64,000 nucleotides of DNA from Dehalococcoidia bacterium (lineage in GTDB: Bacteria; Chloroflexota; Dehalococcoidia; Bin125): contig JAJDTU010000002.1 in assembly GCA_022826965.1 (NCBI GenBank), forward strand, positions 124,001-188,000, in the 5' to 3' direction. Numbering within the stretch: the first letter of the stretch is position 1; the number at the start of each line of letters is the position of its first letter. The position numbers and the translations under genes were made by a program. This document shows, in pieces, positions 49,350 through 57,720 of the stretch. A model generated the notes under the pieces. That model worked only from the letters and a program-made list of their open reading frames with translations. It was not told the DNA's origin and ran no database searches.

Positions 49350-50036
49350 CTATGCGGCGCTGGCACCGGCGTCGTCGAAGTCTCGCTGAATCGGATCGCT
49401 CAGTTCTTCGACCAGGTCTCTGGTCGCGCGAAGTTGCTCCAGCAAGGAATCGACCAGCCAACCTCGATGCGAGAGCGTCAGCAGTCGGCGACGGACGTCT
49501 GGCGGCCCGCCGCCCGCCTTGATCAATCGGTCGATGCTATAGGCGAGCTGTTCGGACAGGTTCGCCCAGGCGTGCTGCACCTCAGTGCGAATCTGAATCT
49601 CCGCGTATCGACCGCTACTGGTGACCACGATCAGGTGAACGGCTCGATAGCCGCCCTTCTGACCCCGGCGCGTGTAGTCCTTCTCACGTTCAATTGTGAG
49701 GCGGACACGCAGCCAGCGAGTAGCGGTTCGCAGATCGGCCAACGTGGGAACAGTGAGTCTGCATCCCGCGATGTCTTGCATTGTGGAGAGCGGGGTCTCC
49801 TTGCGCCGCAGCTTGGCAACCACGGAGTCAATGGCCTTGATCCGGGACCCGACTTCCGTTCGGCGGCCTGCCAACGCTGTGCCACTACAGCGACTCAGTG
49901 CTTCCGTGACTTCGGACAACGCACCGGCGAACCCCGTTCGGAAGGCTTGATAGTCGGCCTCGTTCAGGTCGTTGAGGCCGGCGGCGGCGAGCCGCCGGCC
50001 CAACTCATCTATCGCTTCGGCGTCTCCCTCGGTCAT
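49350..50036 (-). CDS. RelA/SpoT-domain protein (small alarmone-synthetase-like)
   Basis: This 228-residue protein has the synthetase core: EVGSRIKAIDSVVAKLRR (61-78), MQDIAGCRLTV (86-96), GGYRAVHLIV (128-137), YAEIQIRT (144-151) with the catalytic Glu146, and QHAWA (154-158). It lacks the HD hydrolase and TGS domains, so it is a single-domain SAS or a toxic relative (toxSAS). It lies 24 bp after the first amidohydrolase gene. No antitoxin is proven, but two small coupled frames follow. Confidence 0.85.
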   Translation of the reverse strand: MTEGDAEAIDELGRRLAAAGLNDLNEADYQAFRTGFAGALSEVTEALSRCSGTALAGRRTEVGSRIKAIDSVVAKLRRKETPLSTMQDIAGCRLTVPTLADLRTATRWLRVRLTIEREKDYTRRGQKGGYRAVHLIVVTSSGRYAEIQIRTEVQHAWANLSEQLAYSIDRLIKAGGGPPDVRRRLLTLSHRGWLVDSLLEQLRATRDLVEELSDPIQRDFDDAGASAA

Positions 50037-50060: not shown

Positions 50061-51791
50061 CTAGCCCCGGCCGTGGCGGAGGAGCTTTCCGGGGGTGGCT
50101 CCGGTTTCCTTGCCGTCCTGCATCGTGACCTCGCCGTTGACGAGGATCCACTTGTAGCCGTGCGGCTTCTGGACTCGGCGCCATTCGCCGCCGGGGAAGT
50201 CGTAGACGATCTCGCCCTGGAACTCGGGATCGAGCTTCAGTTCGCCGAGGTCGTAGACGACCACGTCTGCCGGGGCGCCCTCGACCAGCGATCCTCGATT
50301 GCTGAATCCGCCTGCTCGAGCCGGCAGATACGACAACCGGTAGTGCGCTTCCTCAAGCGTGATCTTGCCCGTGTCGCGGACCATCCACATGAGGAAGTCG
50401 GTGGGGTACGAGCCCGCCGTCAGGAACTTGGTGTGCGCGCCGCCGTCCGAAACGCCCGGAATCGTGTACGGCGATTCCATGATCTCGGCCATGTGGTCTT
50501 CGTTCGCATTGGTGACCTCAGTCAGGAACTCCGCCTTGAGGTCGGTAGCGAGGGCCAGATCGAGCATGGCGTCGATCGGGTGCTTGCCCATCTTCTCGCC
50601 GACCTGGGCGAGCGTCAGTCCGACGTACTCCTCGAGCTCTGGCTTCGCCTCAAGGTGCTGGATCATGACCCTTTCGATCGAGCCGCCGATGGCCTGAGTC
50701 TGCCCCAGCTTCTCGATCGCGTCGTCCATCTCCGACTTGAGACGCTCGCGGACCTCGGGGTCGGCGAACTTCTGCATCTTCTCTTCGATCGTGCCCGTGG
50801 TGGCGTAGTTCCACGCGGGCGACGAGTCGTAGAGGTTCCAGTCTTCGAGCGTGTAGGCGAAGGCCGAGCGGATCGTGAAGGCTTGACCGAAGATGCGCTC
50901 GCCGCGGTCGTTGGCCTCGTGCAGCCACTTGAGCGACTTCGTGTGCGAGTCGGGGCGCTGGCTGCTGGGCGCGATCACGTTGTGCAGGATCGGCCGTCCG
51001 GAAACCTCGGCCAGCTTTGCCTCGAAGGCGAGGTCGGACTTGATGTCGCCGGTCGCCTGGGTGATCTGGATGAAGCCCTCGTCGCGGTCGCGCAGGACTT
51101 CGGCCAGCGCCAGACACTCGTTGTCCGACATGATGTCGGTCACCATCGGCGTGCCGTCGTAGTCGGCCTGGACCGAGTTCTCACCCAGCCGCTGCGTCGA
51201 CCAGCCGCAGGCGCCGGCGTCCATCGCCTCATGCAGCAGACGCTGCATCTCGGCGATCTCGTCGTCGGTCGCGCGCCGGCTCTTGGCCGCCTCGAGGCCC
51301 ATCACCCAGATCATCAGCGGGGCGATCGGCATGTAGGAGAGGCAGTTCACGCCCTTCGGGATACGGTCGAGCGTGTCGAGCCACTCGGGGAAAGAGATCC
51401 AGTCCCAGATCATTCCTTCCTTCATCGAGTCGAACGGGATCGCCTCGGTGCGGGACATGGTCAGCATCGAGCGATCGCGCTCTTCCGGTCGCACCGGTGC
51501 GAAGCCGAAGCCGCAGTTGCCCAGCACGACCGAGGTCACGCCGTGCCAGCCGGAGATCGTGCAGTACGGGTCCCACTGGATCTGCGCGTCGTAGTGCGTG
51601 TGCAGGTCGACGAAACCCGGCGCCACGATCATGCCGTCGGCTTCGAGGAGTTGATCGGCGTCGGCGGGGTCCATCTTGCCGCCAATCTGGGCTACCACCC
51701 CATCCTTGATCCCGACATCGGCGACAAATCGCGGGACACGAGTCCCGTCCACGACCGTGCCGCCGCGAATCAGTACGTCAAACTTCGCCAT
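50061..51791 (-). CDS. N-acyl-D-amino-acid deacylase-type amidohydrolase (copy 1)
   Basis: The 576-residue enzyme has metal His64 and His66 in VDLHTHYDAQ, Cys93 in GNCGFGFAPV, and a SDGGAHTKFL motif, as in D-aminoacylase/dihydroorotase-like enzymes of the amidohydrolase superfamily. It probably hydrolyses N-acylated or cyclic amides. AAGGAG lies 6 bp before ATG 51791. It is a tandem paralogue of the gene at 51840, 48 bp upstream. Substrate unknown. Confidence 0.93.
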   Translation of the reverse strand: MAKFDVLIRGGTVVDGTRVPRFVADVGIKDGVVAQIGGKMDPADADQLLEADGMIVAPGFVDLHTHYDAQIQWDPYCTISGWHGVTSVVLGNCGFGFAPVRPEERDRSMLTMSRTEAIPFDSMKEGMIWDWISFPEWLDTLDRIPKGVNCLSYMPIAPLMIWVMGLEAAKSRRATDDEIAEMQRLLHEAMDAGACGWSTQRLGENSVQADYDGTPMVTDIMSDNECLALAEVLRDRDEGFIQITQATGDIKSDLAFEAKLAEVSGRPILHNVIAPSSQRPDSHTKSLKWLHEANDRGERIFGQAFTIRSAFAYTLEDWNLYDSSPAWNYATTGTIEEKMQKFADPEVRERLKSEMDDAIEKLGQTQAIGGSIERVMIQHLEAKPELEEYVGLTLAQVGEKMGKHPIDAMLDLALATDLKAEFLTEVTNANEDHMAEIMESPYTIPGVSDGGAHTKFLTAGSYPTDFLMWMVRDTGKITLEEAHYRLSYLPARAGGFSNRGSLVEGAPADVVVYDLGELKLDPEFQGEIVYDFPGGEWRRVQKPHGYKWILVNGEVTMQDGKETGATPGKLLRHGRG

Positions 51792-51839
51792 CTCAGACTC
51801 CTTGTGCTGCTGGTTCCCGTTTCAGGTGATTATGAGCGA

Positions 51840-53570
51840 TTAGCCGCGACCGTGTCGCAGCAGTTTGCCCGGCGTGCTGCCGGTCGATTCTCCGTCCTCG
51901 AACGTGACCTCGCCGTTGACCAGGATCCAGCGGTAGCCGTCCGGTCGTTGGACGCGACGCCATTCGCCTCCGGGGAAGTCGTAGACAACTTCGCCCGTCC
52001 ACTCCGGCGTGATGTTGAGCGCGTCGAGGTCATAGACGACCACGTCGGCCGGCGCGCCTTCGACCAGCGTGCCGCGGTCGCGGAAGCCCGCGGCTCGGGC
52101 GGGCAGATTGCTCAGCCGGTAGTGCGCCTCTTCCAACGTAAGTTGGCCGGTGTCACGGACCAGCCACATCAGGAAGTCGGTCGGATACGAGCCGGCGGTC
52201 AGGAACTTGGTGTGCGCGCCGCCGTCGGAGACGCCGGGGATGCAGTACGGCGAAGTGATCATCTCCGCCGTCCACTCGTCGTTCTGCTCGCGCATCGGCG
52301 TGAGGAACTCGGCCTGCAGGTCGGTCTCGAGGGCGAGGTCGAGCATCGCGTGGACCGGGTGGTAGCCGCGGATCTCGGCGACCTGTCCGACGGTCATGCC
52401 GACGAACTCTTCCAGCTCGTCCTGGTGAGCAAGATCCTGGATCAGCAGTTCCTCGATCGGACCGCCCAGCGCTTGAGTCTGGCCGAGCTTCTTCACCGCC
52501 TCGTCGATTTCGGCGATGATGCGCTCGCGTACATCGGGATCGGCCATCTTGGCCTTGCGCTCCTCGCGAGTGCCGGTCGTGGCGTAGTTCCAGGCCGGCG
52601 ACGAGTCGTACAGGTTCCAGTCCTCGAGGGTGAACGTGAAGGCGGCGCGAATTGTTGCAGCCTGGCCGAAGATGCGCTCGCCGCGGGCGTTGCATTCCTC
52701 CAGCCACTTCATCCGCTTGCGGTGCAGGTCCGGGTTCTTCGGGTTGACCGCGATCAGGTTGTGCAGGATCGGTCGCTTCGCCGCAGCCGCGAGCTCGGAT
52801 TGAAACTCGAGGTCCTTATCCAGGTCGCCGGTGAACTGCGTGATCTGGATGAAGCCTTCGTCGCGTTCGGCCAGCACTTCCGCCAATGCCAGACACTCGC
52901 TGTCCGACATGATGTCGGTGACCATCGGCGTGCCGTCATAGTCGGCCTGGACCGAGTTCTCGCCCAGCCGCTGCGTCGACCAGCCGCAGGCGCCAGCATC
53001 CATCGCCTCGTTGAGCAGGCGCTTCATCTCGCCGATCTCGTCGTCGTTGGCGCGCCGTGACTTGGCCGCCTCAAGCCCCATCACCCACGTCATCAACGGC
53101 GCCAACGGCATGTACGAGAGACAGTTGACACCCTTCGGGATGCGGTCGAGCGTGTCGAGGAACTCGGGGAAGGTGACCCAGTCCCAGATCATCCCCTCTT
53201 TCATCGAGTCGAAGGGAATCGCCTCGGTGCGCGACATGGTCAACATCGCGCGGTCGCGCTCCTCGACACGGACGGGAGCGAAGCCGAAGCCGCAGTTGCC
53301 CAGCACCACCGACGTGACGCCATGCCAGCCCGAGATCGTGCAGTAGGGGTCCCACTGGATCTGAGCGTCGTAGTGCGTGTGCAGGTCGACGAAGCCAGGC
53401 GCAACGATGAGTCCGTCCGCGTCCAGCAGCTGGTCGGCGTCGATAGGGTCTATCTTGCCGCCAATCTGGGCGACGCGGCCGTCCTTGATGCCGACATCGG
53501 CGACAAACCGGGGAACGCTGGTCCCGTCGACGACGGTGCCGCCGCGGATGAGAACGTCGAATTTTGCCAT
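51840..53570 (-). CDS. N-acyl-D-amino-acid deacylase-type amidohydrolase (copy 2)
   Basis: This 576-residue paralogue has the same length and start text (MAKFDVLIRGGTVVDGTSVP). The metal-site motifs LHTHYD, GNCGFGFAPV and SDGGAHTKF are unchanged. Differences concentrate in residues around 250-400, which probably shape the substrate pocket. ATG 53570 has GGAG 6 bp upstream. Both genes are adjacent on the minus strand, a clear tandem duplication. Confidence 0.93.
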   Translation of the reverse strand: MAKFDVLIRGGTVVDGTSVPRFVADVGIKDGRVAQIGGKIDPIDADQLLDADGLIVAPGFVDLHTHYDAQIQWDPYCTISGWHGVTSVVLGNCGFGFAPVRVEERDRAMLTMSRTEAIPFDSMKEGMIWDWVTFPEFLDTLDRIPKGVNCLSYMPLAPLMTWVMGLEAAKSRRANDDEIGEMKRLLNEAMDAGACGWSTQRLGENSVQADYDGTPMVTDIMSDSECLALAEVLAERDEGFIQITQFTGDLDKDLEFQSELAAAAKRPILHNLIAVNPKNPDLHRKRMKWLEECNARGERIFGQAATIRAAFTFTLEDWNLYDSSPAWNYATTGTREERKAKMADPDVRERIIAEIDEAVKKLGQTQALGGPIEELLIQDLAHQDELEEFVGMTVGQVAEIRGYHPVHAMLDLALETDLQAEFLTPMREQNDEWTAEMITSPYCIPGVSDGGAHTKFLTAGSYPTDFLMWLVRDTGQLTLEEAHYRLSNLPARAAGFRDRGTLVEGAPADVVVYDLDALNITPEWTGEVVYDFPGGEWRRVQRPDGYRWILVNGEVTFEDGESTGSTPGKLLRHGRG

Positions 53571-53654
53571 GGGAGTCTCCAAGCGATCCTGGGCGCGGGG
53601 CTACGCGCTACCTTCGGTTGCTCGGAGGATAAGGAAATCAGCTCGCACCTGTCG

Positions 53655-54704
53655 TCAAGTCGTTGGGTCGTCCTCCACTGTGTCATCGCATAGCGCGTCA
53701 GACAGTTCCCTCATCCTTGCGACCACATCAGCCAAGACGAAGCCAAAATCAGCACCCGGTGAGGCGTTCACAGGTGTCCAGCAGTACTTGCCGCTTTGGT
53801 CTTCGACAGTTTCGGGCAGCCTTTGGCGACCTTCCCAATCTTCCGTCCGCGTCATCAGCCACAGTGGAGTTCGTTGATAGCGACTCTCGCGGTACTCGAT
53901 GCTCAGGGCCACCCATGGCGCACTCGTGCCCTTGAGACTGAAGTAGCGACGACAGTACGAGCTCGTGACGCCCCATTGGAGACGATCTCTGCGAATCCAA
54001 CCTTCACGCTTTCCAGTGTCGACGGCTTCCGCCGCAAGCAAACGTAGGCGCGCATCTCGTTCAGCGAAGTCTTCGGCGTCCAGATCAGGTGTCAGCGGCG
54101 CGAAGCCTTGATCATTGAGTGTTTCTGTGAGCCCTCTGAGCTGTCGAATGTCCGACAACACTGCGTCGTTGTCCGCACGGGACGCCATTTCGTCGAGCAG
54201 CGACCGCCAACTCACGAGTGCGACGCGCTTACCAAGCGACGTCAACTGCAGACACGGAAGCCCGTTGTGCCTGGGAACGGTCTCGTACTCCAGAGACGCC
54301 ACGTCTAGTTGTTTCTTCACGTCACGCCAGAGAGACTCTTCCCGCCGGTGAGGGCAGAGGAAAAGCAACACGCCGGGTTCCTTGCCCTCTAGGAGTGTGA
54401 CGTACTCGCTTACCTGTCCGTCGCTCAAGCTGGCCCAGAACTTCGCTTCGATAAGCAGCCGTCTGTTCTTTTCGCTGTCATAGCCAACGAGATCCAATCT
54501 CGCTGTCGGACTCAGCGATTCCTCAGCAGTCAAGCGGACAATCGGCTCCACGGCGAACCCATCCGTACTGAGCAGACCATCAAGCGCTGTCCGGCAACTG
54601 GGGGACTTGTTCAAGATGAATGTCAGGGAACGGGTAGCAGCAACTTCCACTTGGCTCGTAAGCCACGGAATCATATGGGCCAGCAGAGTCTCGTTCTCAG
54701 TCAT
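53655..54704 (-). CDS. PD-(D/E)XK-type nuclease-like protein
   Basis: The 349-residue protein has a putative PD-(D/E)XK core at LDLVGYD (Asp71) and LLIEAKFW (Glu86, Lys88), the arrangement seen in RecB-like and restriction-type nucleases. The rest is unrecognised, with a C-terminal helical part. It starts 3 bp after the upstream small gene. GC content is lower than in the flanking amidohydrolases. Such pairs turn up as uncharacterised putative defence units. Confidence 0.7.
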   Translation of the reverse strand: MTENETLLAHMIPWLTSQVEVAATRSLTFILNKSPSCRTALDGLLSTDGFAVEPIVRLTAEESLSPTARLDLVGYDSEKNRRLLIEAKFWASLSDGQVSEYVTLLEGKEPGVLLFLCPHRREESLWRDVKKQLDVASLEYETVPRHNGLPCLQLTSLGKRVALVSWRSLLDEMASRADNDAVLSDIRQLRGLTETLNDQGFAPLTPDLDAEDFAERDARLRLLAAEAVDTGKREGWIRRDRLQWGVTSSYCRRYFSLKGTSAPWVALSIEYRESRYQRTPLWLMTRTEDWEGRQRLPETVEDQSGKYCWTPVNASPGADFGFVLADVVARMRELSDALCDDTVEDDPTT

Positions 54705-54707
54705 CGA

Positions 54708-55106
54708 TCAGCTCCCACCTTCGTTGCCAGCGCGTCGGAGCGCCGGCTCCGACGGATAATCCCGCGCCCGACCCGTATCCCCCTCCTGGATGACGAAGTC
54801 GCGGCGATCTCGGTAGAGCGGGGCCCGATTGATTGCGTAGTTGTCCTGGTCGAAGTAGGGGTCGATCTTCTCGTAGTGGGTCATCAGCCAGTACTTGTAG
54901 CTGCCGATGAACAGGTAGGTGTTCTCCATCTTGAAGAAGCGGCCCGGGACTCCCTCTCCCGCTCGGAAGCGGTCGCAGATTGCGGCGAGCAGCTCTCGCT
55001 GGTGCTGGCTGGAGCTCATCACGTATTCGTGCGGCCAGGTCTCGCGAAACATGACTGCCTCACGCCAGGGCGCCTGTTCGATCAGTTGGATCAGCCTGGT
55101 CTTCAC
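54708..55106 (-). CDS. Conserved hypothetical protein, partner of the PD-(D/E)XK gene
   Basis: I choose GTG 55106, which has GGAGGAGGGG about 6 bp upstream, giving 132 residues; a longer frame to 55382 lacks such a site. EAVMFRETWPHEYVM, FLGSYKYWLM-like text (FIGSYKYWLMTHYEKID) and NRAPLYRDRRDFVIQEGDTG look like a conserved family whose function is not known. The next gene starts 3 bp after the stop. It is only inferred that the two proteins act together. Confidence 0.7.
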   Translation of the reverse strand: MKTRLIQLIEQAPWREAVMFRETWPHEYVMSSSQHQRELLAAICDRFRAGEGVPGRFFKMENTYLFIGSYKYWLMTHYEKIDPYFDQDNYAINRAPLYRDRRDFVIQEGDTGRARDYPSEPALRRAGNEGGS

Positions 55107-55254
55107 GTCGGTCCCCTCCTCCGCCGGTCGATCTTGGCATAGCCACAGCGGTTTGTCACCAGGAGCTCGCGGGGCGTTCTCTATCGAGAACGGCCCGCTC
55201 GACGGACCAGACGCCAAGGGCATGACTAGAGAACGATGCCGTTGATAGAGTGGA

Positions 55255-55285
55255 TTGTGAATCGGAGAAGTGGAAGGCCTATACT
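55255..55285 (+). promoter_or_regulatory. Putative leuA promoter
   Basis: TTGTGA (55255-55260), a 19-bp spacer and TATACT (55280-55285). The -10 is good; the spacing is long. The predicted transcript start falls close to an ATG at 55292. Confidence 0.4.
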
Positions 55286-55321
55286 GCCGCCATGACGCAG
55301 TGTGTGCTTGGGGGAGTTGAA

Positions 55322-55341
55322 CCGCGGGCTGTTGCCCGCGG
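55322..55341 (+). promoter_or_regulatory. leuA leader hairpin 1
   Basis: CCGCGGGC, loop TGTT, GCCCGCGG: a perfect 8-bp stem. It is preceded by GAGTTGAACCGCG, which matches most of the T-box consensus but lacks the UGG bulge needed to pair with the tRNA end. Confidence 0.5.
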
Positions 55342-55362
55342 GGTGCTCGGGGCCTGATGAGG

Positions 55363-55380
55363 GGCCGCCGATCGGTGGCC
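55363..55380 (+). promoter_or_regulatory. leuA leader hairpin 2
   Basis: GGCCGCC, loop GATC, GGTGGCC form a 7-bp stem with one G-T pair, 49 bp before the leuA ATG. Confidence 0.45.
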
Positions 55381-55429
55381 ATGTCTCTGTCTTCTTCCGA
55401 TCCTTGTTCCGACCACAGGAGTTCCCGCT

Positions 55430-56983
55430 ATGGCTGATCGAGTCCGAATCTTTGATACCACCCTGCGCGACGGCGAACAGGCCGCCGGCGTCTCCTTCTC
55501 TGCGGAGGAGAAGCTGCAGATCGCTAAGCTGCTCGAGCGCATGGGCGTCGACTGCATCGAGGCCGGCTTTGCCGCTGCCTCGCCGGCCGATTTCGACGCC
55601 GTCAACCGCATCGCCCGTGAAGTGCGCGGCACGCAGATCGCGTCGCTCTGCCGCGCCGTGCCCAACGATGTCGACCAGGGCTGGGAGGCGATCCGTGATG
55701 CGGAGAATCCGCGCATCCACGTCTTTCTGTCCTCGTCCGACATCCACATCGCGCACCAACTGCGCAAGGACCGAGAGTCGGTGCTGCAGCAGGCGCGCGA
55801 GATGGTCGCAAGGGCCAAACAGTACACCAGCGACGTCGAGTTTTCGCCGATGGACGCAACGCGGTCGGACGTTGACTTCGTGCGCCGCATGCTGCGCGAG
55901 GTGATCGAGGCCGGCGCGACCACGATCAACATTCCCGACACCGTCGGCTACGCCATCCCCGACGAGTTCGCACGCTTCATTCAAGGCATCCTTGAGGACG
56001 TGCCCGGCGCCGACAACGTGGTCGTCTCGGTGCACTGCCACAACGACCTGGGCCTCTCAACGGCCAACTCTCTCGCCGCCGTCGGCGCCGGGGCGCGACA
56101 GGTCGAATGCACGATCAACGGACTCGGCGAGCGCGCCGGCAACACCTCGCTCGAAGAAACCGTGATGGCGATCCGCACGCGCGCCGACCACCTCGGCGTC
56201 GAGATCGGCGTGGACCCGCAATACCTGGTCCCGGCGTCGCGCATGGTCCAGGAGTTTGCCGGCATGCACGTGCAGCCGAACAAGGCGATCGTCGGGCTCA
56301 ACGCGTTCCGTCACCAGTCCGGGATCCACCAGGATGGCGTGGTCAAGATGCGCGAGACCTACGAGATCATGGACCCCAAGGAAGTCGGCTGGGTCGAGGG
56401 CTCGCAGTTCGTGCTCTCCAAGCTGTCCGGCCGCGCGGGATTCCGCTCGCGCCTCGAAGACCTCGGTTACGAACTGGACGCCGACGAGTTGAAGGCCGCC
56501 TTCGACCGCTTCCAGCAGCTCGCCGACCGTAAGACGGTCGTTGACGACCGCGACCTCGAAGCGATCGTGATGGACCGACTCGGTCAACCAACCGAGGGCT
56601 GGCAGCTCGTCTCAATCGACATCTCCGCCGGCACGACCTCGACACCGTCGGCGACTGTTTCGCTGCGCTCGCCTGAGGGCGAGGAGCGCTCCGGGACCAA
56701 GACCGGCACGGGGCCCGTCGATGCGATTTACCAGACCATCCGCGAGCTGACCGGGGTGGCCGACGAGCTCGAGGAGTACAGCGTTTCCAGCATCACCGAG
56801 GGCCTTGACGCCCAGGGCGACGTCACGATTCGCATCCTGATCGACGGCGCCACGCACACGGGTCGCGCTGCGGACCAGGACATCCTCGTCGCATCTGCTC
56901 GGGCCTACCTGAACGCGATCAACCGCCACGTCGGCGGAGCGACCGGGGCGATGGCCGCAGCGACGCAGGAACGGACGCCTTAG
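55430..56983 (+). CDS. leuA: 2-isopropylmalate synthase
   Basis: This 517-residue enzyme condenses acetyl-CoA with 2-oxoisovalerate, the first step of leucine synthesis. It has IFDTTLRDGEQAAGVSFS, NIPDTVGYAIPDEF, VSVHCHNDLGLSTANS and the C-terminal regulatory domain (about 390-510). The conserved KHSGR near residue 340 reads KLSGR. AGGAG lies 8 bp before ATG 55430. leuC is 0.7 kb downstream with a toxin-antitoxin-like pair between them; leuB and leuD are not visible. Citramalate synthase is a less likely alternative. Confidence 0.93.
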   Translation: MADRVRIFDTTLRDGEQAAGVSFSAEEKLQIAKLLERMGVDCIEAGFAAASPADFDAVNRIAREVRGTQIASLCRAVPNDVDQGWEAIRDAENPRIHVFLSSSDIHIAHQLRKDRESVLQQAREMVARAKQYTSDVEFSPMDATRSDVDFVRRMLREVIEAGATTINIPDTVGYAIPDEFARFIQGILEDVPGADNVVVSVHCHNDLGLSTANSLAAVGAGARQVECTINGLGERAGNTSLEETVMAIRTRADHLGVEIGVDPQYLVPASRMVQEFAGMHVQPNKAIVGLNAFRHQSGIHQDGVVKMRETYEIMDPKEVGWVEGSQFVLSKLSGRAGFRSRLEDLGYELDADELKAAFDRFQQLADRKTVVDDRDLEAIVMDRLGQPTEGWQLVSIDISAGTTSTPSATVSLRSPEGEERSGTKTGTGPVDAIYQTIRELTGVADELEEYSVSSITEGLDAQGDVTIRILIDGATHTGRAADQDILVASARAYLNAINRHVGGATGAMAAATQERTP

Positions 56984-57009: not shown

Positions 57010-57294
57010 TCAGCGAATGAATCCGTCGCGGCGCAGCATGGCTTCGTAGTCGGCTTGAGAGAGTCGGCAGTCGATCAGGTCGTCAAACTGGCGGCGGGTG
57101 AGGTGAAGCTGACGGGCCATGTGGGCGAGAAGTCGGTCATCAAGGTCGCGGACCGAGCCGTGAGACATGATCGTCACGACGTTCGTCCGATCGCCGTCCA
57201 GTTTGTAGTAGCGAAAGCGGCGATGCCGAGACTCCGTCAGTAAGAACCCTCTCCGCAACAGCCCTCGAAGGACAGCCCGGGTGCTACGAGGCAT
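57010..57294 (-). CDS. HicA-like small basic protein
   Basis: The 94-residue basic protein has RRGFLLTESRHRRFRYYKLDGDR and IMSHGSVRDLDDRLLAHM, which resemble the double-stranded RNA-binding-like fold of HicA toxins (Ser-His-His/Arg-like core, here SRHRRFRYY). The start ATG 57294 overlaps the end of the partner gene by 11 bp. A long C-terminal helix (HLTRRQFDDLIDCRLSQADY) is not typical of HicA, so the assignment is tentative. Confidence 0.45.
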   Translation of the reverse strand: MPRSTRAVLRGLLRRGFLLTESRHRRFRYYKLDGDRTNVVTIMSHGSVRDLDDRLLAHMARQLHLTRRQFDDLIDCRLSQADYEAMLRRDGFIR

Positions 57295-57613
57295 CCGGTA
57301 CCAGCTTGAAGCGCGCCCGCAATTCCGCGCCGAACTCTACTGCGACGCCATCCATACCCACGGGGTCGCCCTCCGCATATTCCCGCCACATCCAGCTCAG
57401 CGAGTCGTCGATCAAGTCCCAGCACTCTTCGCGCGTCGCCGCGCCGTGCATAATGTTGTACTCCCCCTCAAAGAGGTAGAGGCCAACGCCGTCTTCCACC
57501 GCGTATTCGAAGGTGAAGATGAGCGGCTTGTCCGTTCGGTAGCGCTGCCCATTGGAGACGAACTCAGTGAAGACCATCGGGCTGACATCGATGTCTGAGG
57601 CGGGCGTTGCCAT
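57284..57613 (-). CDS. HicB-like hypothetical protein, upstream partner
   Basis: ATG 57613 has GGAGG 5 bp upstream, giving 109 residues. It has a beta-rich core (YRTDKPLIFTFEYAVEDG, GEYNIMHGAATREECWDLID) similar in style to HicB-type antitoxin domains, but no DNA-binding domain. It overlaps the HicA-like gene by 11 bp. I am not sure of the family; an immunity protein or a small enzyme is possible. Confidence 0.45.
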   Translation of the reverse strand: MATPASDIDVSPMVFTEFVSNGQRYRTDKPLIFTFEYAVEDGVGLYLFEGEYNIMHGAATREECWDLIDDSLSWMWREYAEGDPVGMDGVAVEFGAELRARFKLVPDAS

Positions 57614-57720
57614 GCCGTCCTCCGCTTCTGGAATCTCAGGATATCCCCGCGCGCGGGCCTCAGCGGTTACTGCGCGTAAGATGACTCGTGAGACCGACAT
57701 TCCAGAGCAGGGAGACGACG

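Follow-up and report, generated by a model that had tools for sequence, protein, structure and literature searches.

A small conserved protein gene adjoining exchangeable nuclease genes points to a modular, defence-like pattern

CBASS-type defence systems are modular sensor-effector systems in which a fixed sensor is combined with an exchangeable effector. Among restriction enzymes, GmrSD belongs to the type IV (modification-dependent) family, GmrS has a ParB/Srx fold, and DUF4268 is most often associated with DUF262 and DUF1524, according to the sections of PMC4619093 drawn on here. The modification loci of Dnd systems have been reported to carry diverse decoupled nucleases (PMC10853773), and the portion of this reappraisal used here describes no protein of the kind reported below. 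Nor is such a protein described in the consulted extracts of the literature on its partner nucleases, ParB/PAPS reductase, IbrA/IbrB and phosphorothioation, where an unnamed family would escape a text search. The protein is encoded in a window (the whole stretch of 64,000 nucleotides that was analysed) on contig 13 of genome G000 (3.0 Mb, 97% complete), in which two adjoining genes, A and B, were delimited as follows:

54708..55106, minus strand: gene A, 132 aa, family undescribed; start GTG at 55106, stop TGA at 54708-54710
55113..55122, minus strand: ribosome-binding site (RBS) of gene A, GGAGGAGGGG, 6 nt ahead of the GTG, as read from the sequence
53655..54704, minus strand: gene B, 349 aa, PD-(D/E)XK nuclease-like; ATG at 54704, stop ending at 53655
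54712..54716, minus strand: RBS of gene B, GGGAG, within the 3' end of gene A, read likewise
54177..54650, minus strand: PD-(D/E)XK core of B, residues 19-176, with E20, D71, E86-x-K88, Q97 and Y101, from alignment and fold matches
53685..54101, minus strand: C-terminal domain of B, residues 202-340; top matches T4 MotA DNA-binding domain and E2-like Atg10

The two genes form an operon-like pair, in which a gap of 3 nt separates the stop codon of gene A from the ATG of gene B, both genes have a good RBS, and the start codon of gene A agrees with those of its homologues in the alignment. The original prediction of a 132-residue protein with a strong RBS, placed 3 bp before a putative nuclease, was borne out for both open reading frames. 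A sigma-70 promoter scan of positions 53400-55450 found none. GC3 is 0.83 in gene A, 0.81-0.88 in the neighbours and 0.64 in gene B. On one side the unit is flanked by a gene that we take, by its sequence, to be leuA-like (55430-56983, plus strand), and on the other by a tandem pair of genes, presumably amidohydrolase-like and named in the same way (50061-53582, minus strand), which are very similar to each other; a frame of 1348 aa opposite this pair is probably an artefact of high GC3. The 228-aa product of 49350-50036 (minus strand) presumably resembles a small RelA/SpoT-type alarmone synthetase. Two small overlapping genes (57010-57294 and 57284-57700, minus strand) lie between the leuA- and leuC-like genes, and their relatives were found near leuA at two other loci (L002 and L020).

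No match to A at E<=1 was found in Pfam, NCBIfam, PADLOC or PHROGs. A scan of the genome contig collection yielded 19 loci in metagenome-assembled genomes (MAGs) of several phyla, labelled Chloroflexota/Dehalococcoidia, Gemmatimonadota, Latescibacterota, Alpha-/Gammaproteobacteria and Bacteroidota, these being the labels of the records, in which errors of MAG binning are possible; the closest matches came from MAGs labelled Dehalococcoidia or Chloroflexota. The gene was present in 10 of 301 genomes of the phylum, 15 of 393 of its own class and all six of family f41 (one as a scrap only), and in 3/64, 1/293 and 2/246 genomes of three other samples. In 329 genomes from the phylum to which G304 belongs, profile A2 recovered the starting genome alone, indicating that A is not common there. 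The homologues (n=26) are 53-82% identical to the window protein, and 31 positions are invariant in the alignment of 27 rows. The conserved text singled out in the original prediction is real, since WPHEY, KYW.MT and NRA.LYRDRRDF are invariant or nearly so across 27 homologues that come from several phyla. A dN/dS of 0.05-0.26 (nine pairs) shows purifying selection on A and marks it as a selected protein-coding gene. The AF2 model (pLDDT 76.5, pTM 0.70) predicts an alpha/beta protein with a confident core. Known folds were sought and rejected: Foldseek against the PDB gave a best E of 0.2, which amounts to nothing, VIA-align a top Z of 4.2, and sequence profiles only E 0.8-1.5. Against a viral structure library the model had one clear match, A0A516LRX9, an unnamed viral protein of 93 aa (E 8.5e-5, TM 0.70 on the target), which supports the predicted fold and names no function.

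Gene B carries the signature of a nuclease. E20, T24, D71, E86, K88, Q97 and Y101 are invariant in all 13 rows of B homologues, and D71, E86 and K88 correspond to the catalytic pattern D ... (D/E)-x-K. In the AF2 model (pLDDT 81.2, pTM 0.61), the strand-helix order of a restriction-endonuclease-like core surrounds these invariant residues. Fold comparison of the core gave Z values all below 8 (EndoMS 6.4, EcoT38I 6.4, BstEII 6.2, PaqCI 6.0, MspJI 5.5, HindIII 5.3), and Foldseek matched the model to EcoT38I with a probability of 0.96 but an E of 6.9e-3. The N-terminal matches were mostly restriction-like (EndoMS/NucS, EcoT38I, BstEII, PaqCI, Can2, MspJI, HindIII, LmuA, McrBC and Cap4) over a Z range of 4.2-6.4, the lower ones including the unrelated Rag GTPases and S-adenosylhomocysteinase. 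The matches of the C-terminal part to the T4 MotA DNA-binding domain (Z 7.2) and Atg10 (Z 7.1) are too weak to settle its nature. Searches with B found no sequence-related solved structure and no matching PADLOC model; against Pfam PDDEXK_4 (PF14281) it scored 18.2 bits, below the gathering score of 22.3, and a distant relative in Rhizobium scored 20.9 bits. The invariant residues and the predicted fold support the reading of B as a PD-(D/E)XK-type nuclease-like protein, and the identity originally proposed for it is thereby upheld.

The survey of partners took in 36 A loci, with duplicates removed and the A gene whole or almost whole, from MAGs labelled with several different phyla; the A scraps L010b, L020, L046, L083, L096, L098 and L099 fall outside this set. 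Ten of these loci represent only two orthologous sites, one with six members in genus g1 and one with four in genus g53, so the 36 are not all independent. A nuclease gene of one of five families adjoins A at 30 of them: the B type at 14 (of which one is cut or truncated and another has a stop in A), the DUF4268 type at nine (seven downstream of A, two upstream), PDDEXK_4 at three (one truncated), GmrSD at two, and a NucS-like type at two (one 286 nt off). An Ssp operon abuts A at a further two loci, and four have no recognised partner (L008, L015, L016 and L084). Pfam identified NucS_C (L007, L019), GmrSD_N with GmrSD_C (L009, L042), PDDEXK_4 (L017, L036) and DUF4268 (L044 and L088, with L090 just under the cut-off) among the partners, and PADLOC assigned the families other than B to known or candidate defence genes. 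The arrangement is regular, with A as the first gene in 28 of the 30 pairs and a median gap of 12 nt (<=24 nt in 22 of 27 measured). One locus has two tandem A cassettes (A-B and A-NucS, L007), and another has A-B plus a scrap of A (L010). An absence of linkage in other genomes had been named as what would speak against the pair; as B adjoins A at 14 of the 36 loci, that objection fails.

The two-gene unit stands, but it is not exclusive: four further nuclease families serve as partners of A, and B has no adjoining A at 19 of 25 places in 301 genomes of the same phylum. In that sample B occurred in 21 genomes at these 25 places (26 rows, two being one gene). A adjoins it at six, and the other 19, mostly belonging to other B subclades, have no A-type open reading frame within ~1.5 kb; A itself occurred at 13 places (14 rows, two being one frameshifted gene), six of them with B. 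On the B tree the with-A and without-A labels need 4 changes versus ~9 in shuffles, in a sampling that is uneven (with-A rows from A searches, without-A rows from the B search) and includes one poor row (L129, 9 stops in the stretch given) and one long branch (L104). Linkage to A is thus clustered on the B tree, although its exact history is unsure. The A-less B homologues (L125-L143) are often followed by a gene that starts MSLRIVNWNVQ and is presumably of endonuclease/exonuclease/phosphatase type; B and this gene make up a further recurrent nuclease pair.

The nuclease has been exchanged repeatedly while A was kept. The A tree, which has 34 of the 36 loci (L013 and L041, with a stop or frameshift in A, were omitted), requires at least 8 changes of partner label with 'none' rows excluded; the six rows labelled 'none' include L089, which has a DUF4268 gene directly upstream, and L014, which follows SspA. 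The seven rows with downstream DUF4268 form one A clade together with L084 (support 99/100), which indicates that swapping is real but not random. At the genus g53 site (G033, G157, G221 and G117) the flanking oxidoreductases are 80-87% identical and A is 84-89% identical; G033 and G157 have B as partner (80% identical mutually), G221 a B of 37% identity, and G117 GmrSD. Behind the new B of G221 lie pieces of 44 and 69 nt of the old A/B junction and the old B (91% and 83%), which read as the scar of an insertion directly behind A. A weak PDDEXK_4-type open reading frame (L038:8574-10043, minus strand) lies on the opposite strand beside a swapped B and an old-B relic. In genus g1 leuA is 96-99% identical, the flanks 89-99%, A 69-83% and B 32-43%, a sign that change or replacement runs much faster in the cassette than around it. 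In each of 55 pairs A was better conserved than B, and at 20 of 21 loci A had a higher GC3 than its partner. In a sister species (L020:5314-6727) the B site behind a truncated A holds what we take to be a RelE/HigBA-like toxin-antitoxin and an ImmA-like gene, which marks it as a turnover site.

Distant relatives of A were reached only by the wider profile A2 together with the distant member L083, in plasmids of Rhizobium and Butyrivibrio and in 15 IMG/VR contigs. The direct search with A (P0001) in phages and plasmids, A1 in IMG/VR, the A2 profile and L083 in phage records, and L083 alone in IMG/VR all gave no match. The Butyrivibrio plasmid protein aligned to A with an hhalign probability of 95 (E 3.7e-8), and its gene adjoins McrBC, WYL and HIRAN genes. 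The Rhizobium plasmid protein is 41% identical to the Butyrivibrio one and tied to A through it, and a relative of B (E 1e-12) lies 51 bp from its gene, divergently oriented. Among the IMG/VR contigs, L104 is closely related to the Rhizobium locus. The remaining 14 (L105-L118), of which three pairs are near duplicates and whose viral status is the prediction of the collection, all have a ParB-like gene, which immediately precedes A in 11 of them, and a PAPS-reductase-like gene is present in 12, as named by PHROGs. We presume this cassette to be comparable to IbrB/IbrA. It also carries variable transferase or methylase-like genes, and some viral A-type contigs hold a DPPW-motif gene that is presumably methylase-like.

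A link to phosphorothioation was seen at two loci. In G305, the gene of an SspA-type cysteine desulfurase is followed after 9 nt by the start of A, and SspB (DUF4007), SspC, SspD and a DUF262 gene are found beside it, along with genes of the PbeA and PbeC types; in G149, SspD is followed after 332 nt by an A with a frameshift. Four of 30 A genomes carry DUF4007, at 5 places of which two adjoin A, versus none of 26 comparison genomes, which were picked by hand. Phosphorothioate as a general requirement was rejected, because 26 of the 30 A genomes, G000 among them, have no SspB (DUF4007). As the link was also found post hoc, it serves as a lead only.

We propose, with a probability of about 0.5, a modular defence built on nucleases, in which A would be the conserved subunit acting as adaptor or sensor. 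The small alpha/beta protein would work with whichever DNA endonuclease is encoded directly behind it, in the window B, putatively of the PD-(D/E)XK type, whose C-terminal domain may bind DNA. A may bind its partner or the target DNA, deciding when or where the nuclease cuts; the target could be foreign or modified DNA, so that the unit would defend the cell. The effector would be exchangeable and A constant, a division of roles known from other modular defences. A defence role is plausible given the partner families and the two loci joined to Ssp operons, and since A has no known fold, we infer the role of adaptor or sensor from context alone. The persistence of B without A at 19 of 25 places and the four of 36 A loci with no recognised partner speak against it. 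Alternatively, A could be a hyperpromiscuous antitoxin that neutralises a toxic nuclease encoded behind it and evolves to counter different ones, by a logic like that of PanA/Panacea. Such an antitoxin would suit a small first gene with a tight gap, partners swapped inside A clades and the existence of A remnants lacking a nuclease (e.g. L020, L096, L098), and there is a precedent in one antitoxin domain swapped over unrelated toxins (PMC8832971, as far as the sections used here go). However, the B proteins encoded without A at those 19 places, mostly of other subclades, would need no A antidote, which makes it less likely that every B depends on A in this way; moreover, A is far more conserved than B, its pI values (4.9-8.8) are not acidic throughout, and A-type genes stand by Ssp operons and viral ParB/PAPS genes with no such nuclease toxin directly adjoining. 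We consider an antitoxin possible but somewhat unlikely.

The Ssp and viral neighbours could instead mean that A takes part in DNA modification, as a small enzyme or specificity factor for a sulfur or base mark, the nuclease cutting DNA that either lacks or carries this mark, as in restriction-modification. The ParB-like (14/14) and PAPS-reductase-like (12/14) genes of the viral A-type contigs, the presumably methylase-like DPPW-motif gene in some of them and the positions of A after SspA (9 nt, G305) and SspD (332 nt, G149) fit this, but A has 90-130 aa and no recognised catalytic family, most A-nuclease pairs stand without a modification gene, and the Ssp link is post hoc, which makes a part in modification quite unlikely. 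That A merely accumulates as a bystander beside nucleases in defence islands, without cooperating, would explain why the partner families are defence-island genes and why four of the 36 loci have no nuclease; it is very improbable in view of the fixed order (A first in 28/30) and spacing (22/27 gaps <=24 nt), of one A clade keeping one partner family, of the A-B link recurring in Rhizobium, and of a chance of ~1e-24 for 30 of 36 if one in ten genes were such nucleases, a rough figure for loci that are not independent. Least probable of all, with nothing in the results tipping towards it, is the DNA-repair unit that had originally been suggested as the alternative to defence: one partner family is NucS/EndoMS-like and the B core resembles EndoMS, yet the patchy presence (15/393 genomes of its own class), the replacement in situ, the pseudogenes and the GmrSD and DUF4268 partners are unlike housekeeping.

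A broader version of the adaptor or sensor reading is speculative and rather unlikely, namely that A founds a superfamily of small proteins with a reader or licensing role at modified (e.g. sulfur-containing) DNA. On this view one module would serve viral ParB/PAPS cassettes, Ssp phosphorothioation operons and, in bacteria, as the constant half of a plug-and-play restriction system that has taken up nucleases of at least five families downstream of the 3' end of A. If the adaptor or sensor proposal is true, one small unannotated protein would mark nuclease two-gene systems that are now annotated as unrelated orphan nucleases, and it would offer a handle on the control of DUF4268, PDDEXK_4, NucS-like and GmrSD proteins. 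The swap loci, in which flanks and A are kept and the nuclease is exchanged, would be a natural experiment on the constant part of the system, and the Ssp-operon and viral ParB/PAPS links would give a testable guess at the recognition target of A.

Compared with known systems, the observations point to A/B as one case of a wider, undescribed, modular and defence-like pattern. A is like PanA (Panacea, DUF4065) in being one small conserved domain in two-gene loci with many unrelated partners and frequent exchange within clades (PMC8832971, in the part used here); unlike PanA, it has no Panacea (DUF4065) match in Pfam at E<=1, its observed partners are all nuclease-like, and B occurs without it. 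The type IV restriction enzymes GmrSD/SspE are related to the pattern through GmrSD, one partner family of A, whereas B is a putative PD-(D/E)XK protein and no A-like accessory appears in the sections of PMC4619093 drawn on. Two A genes joined to Ssp operons recall the Ssp/Dnd phosphorothioation systems (PMC10853773, in part), whereas the window and 26 of 30 A genomes are without SspB/DUF4007; in the same portion of that source PbeB is a rapidly evolving small protein, whereas A is strongly conserved. The partner nucleases of A score in the PADLOC candidates PDC-S11, PDC-S26 and HEC-06, which are single models, whereas neither A nor B matches any PADLOC model. By analogy only, the A system resembles CBASS in joining a fixed part to an exchangeable effector.
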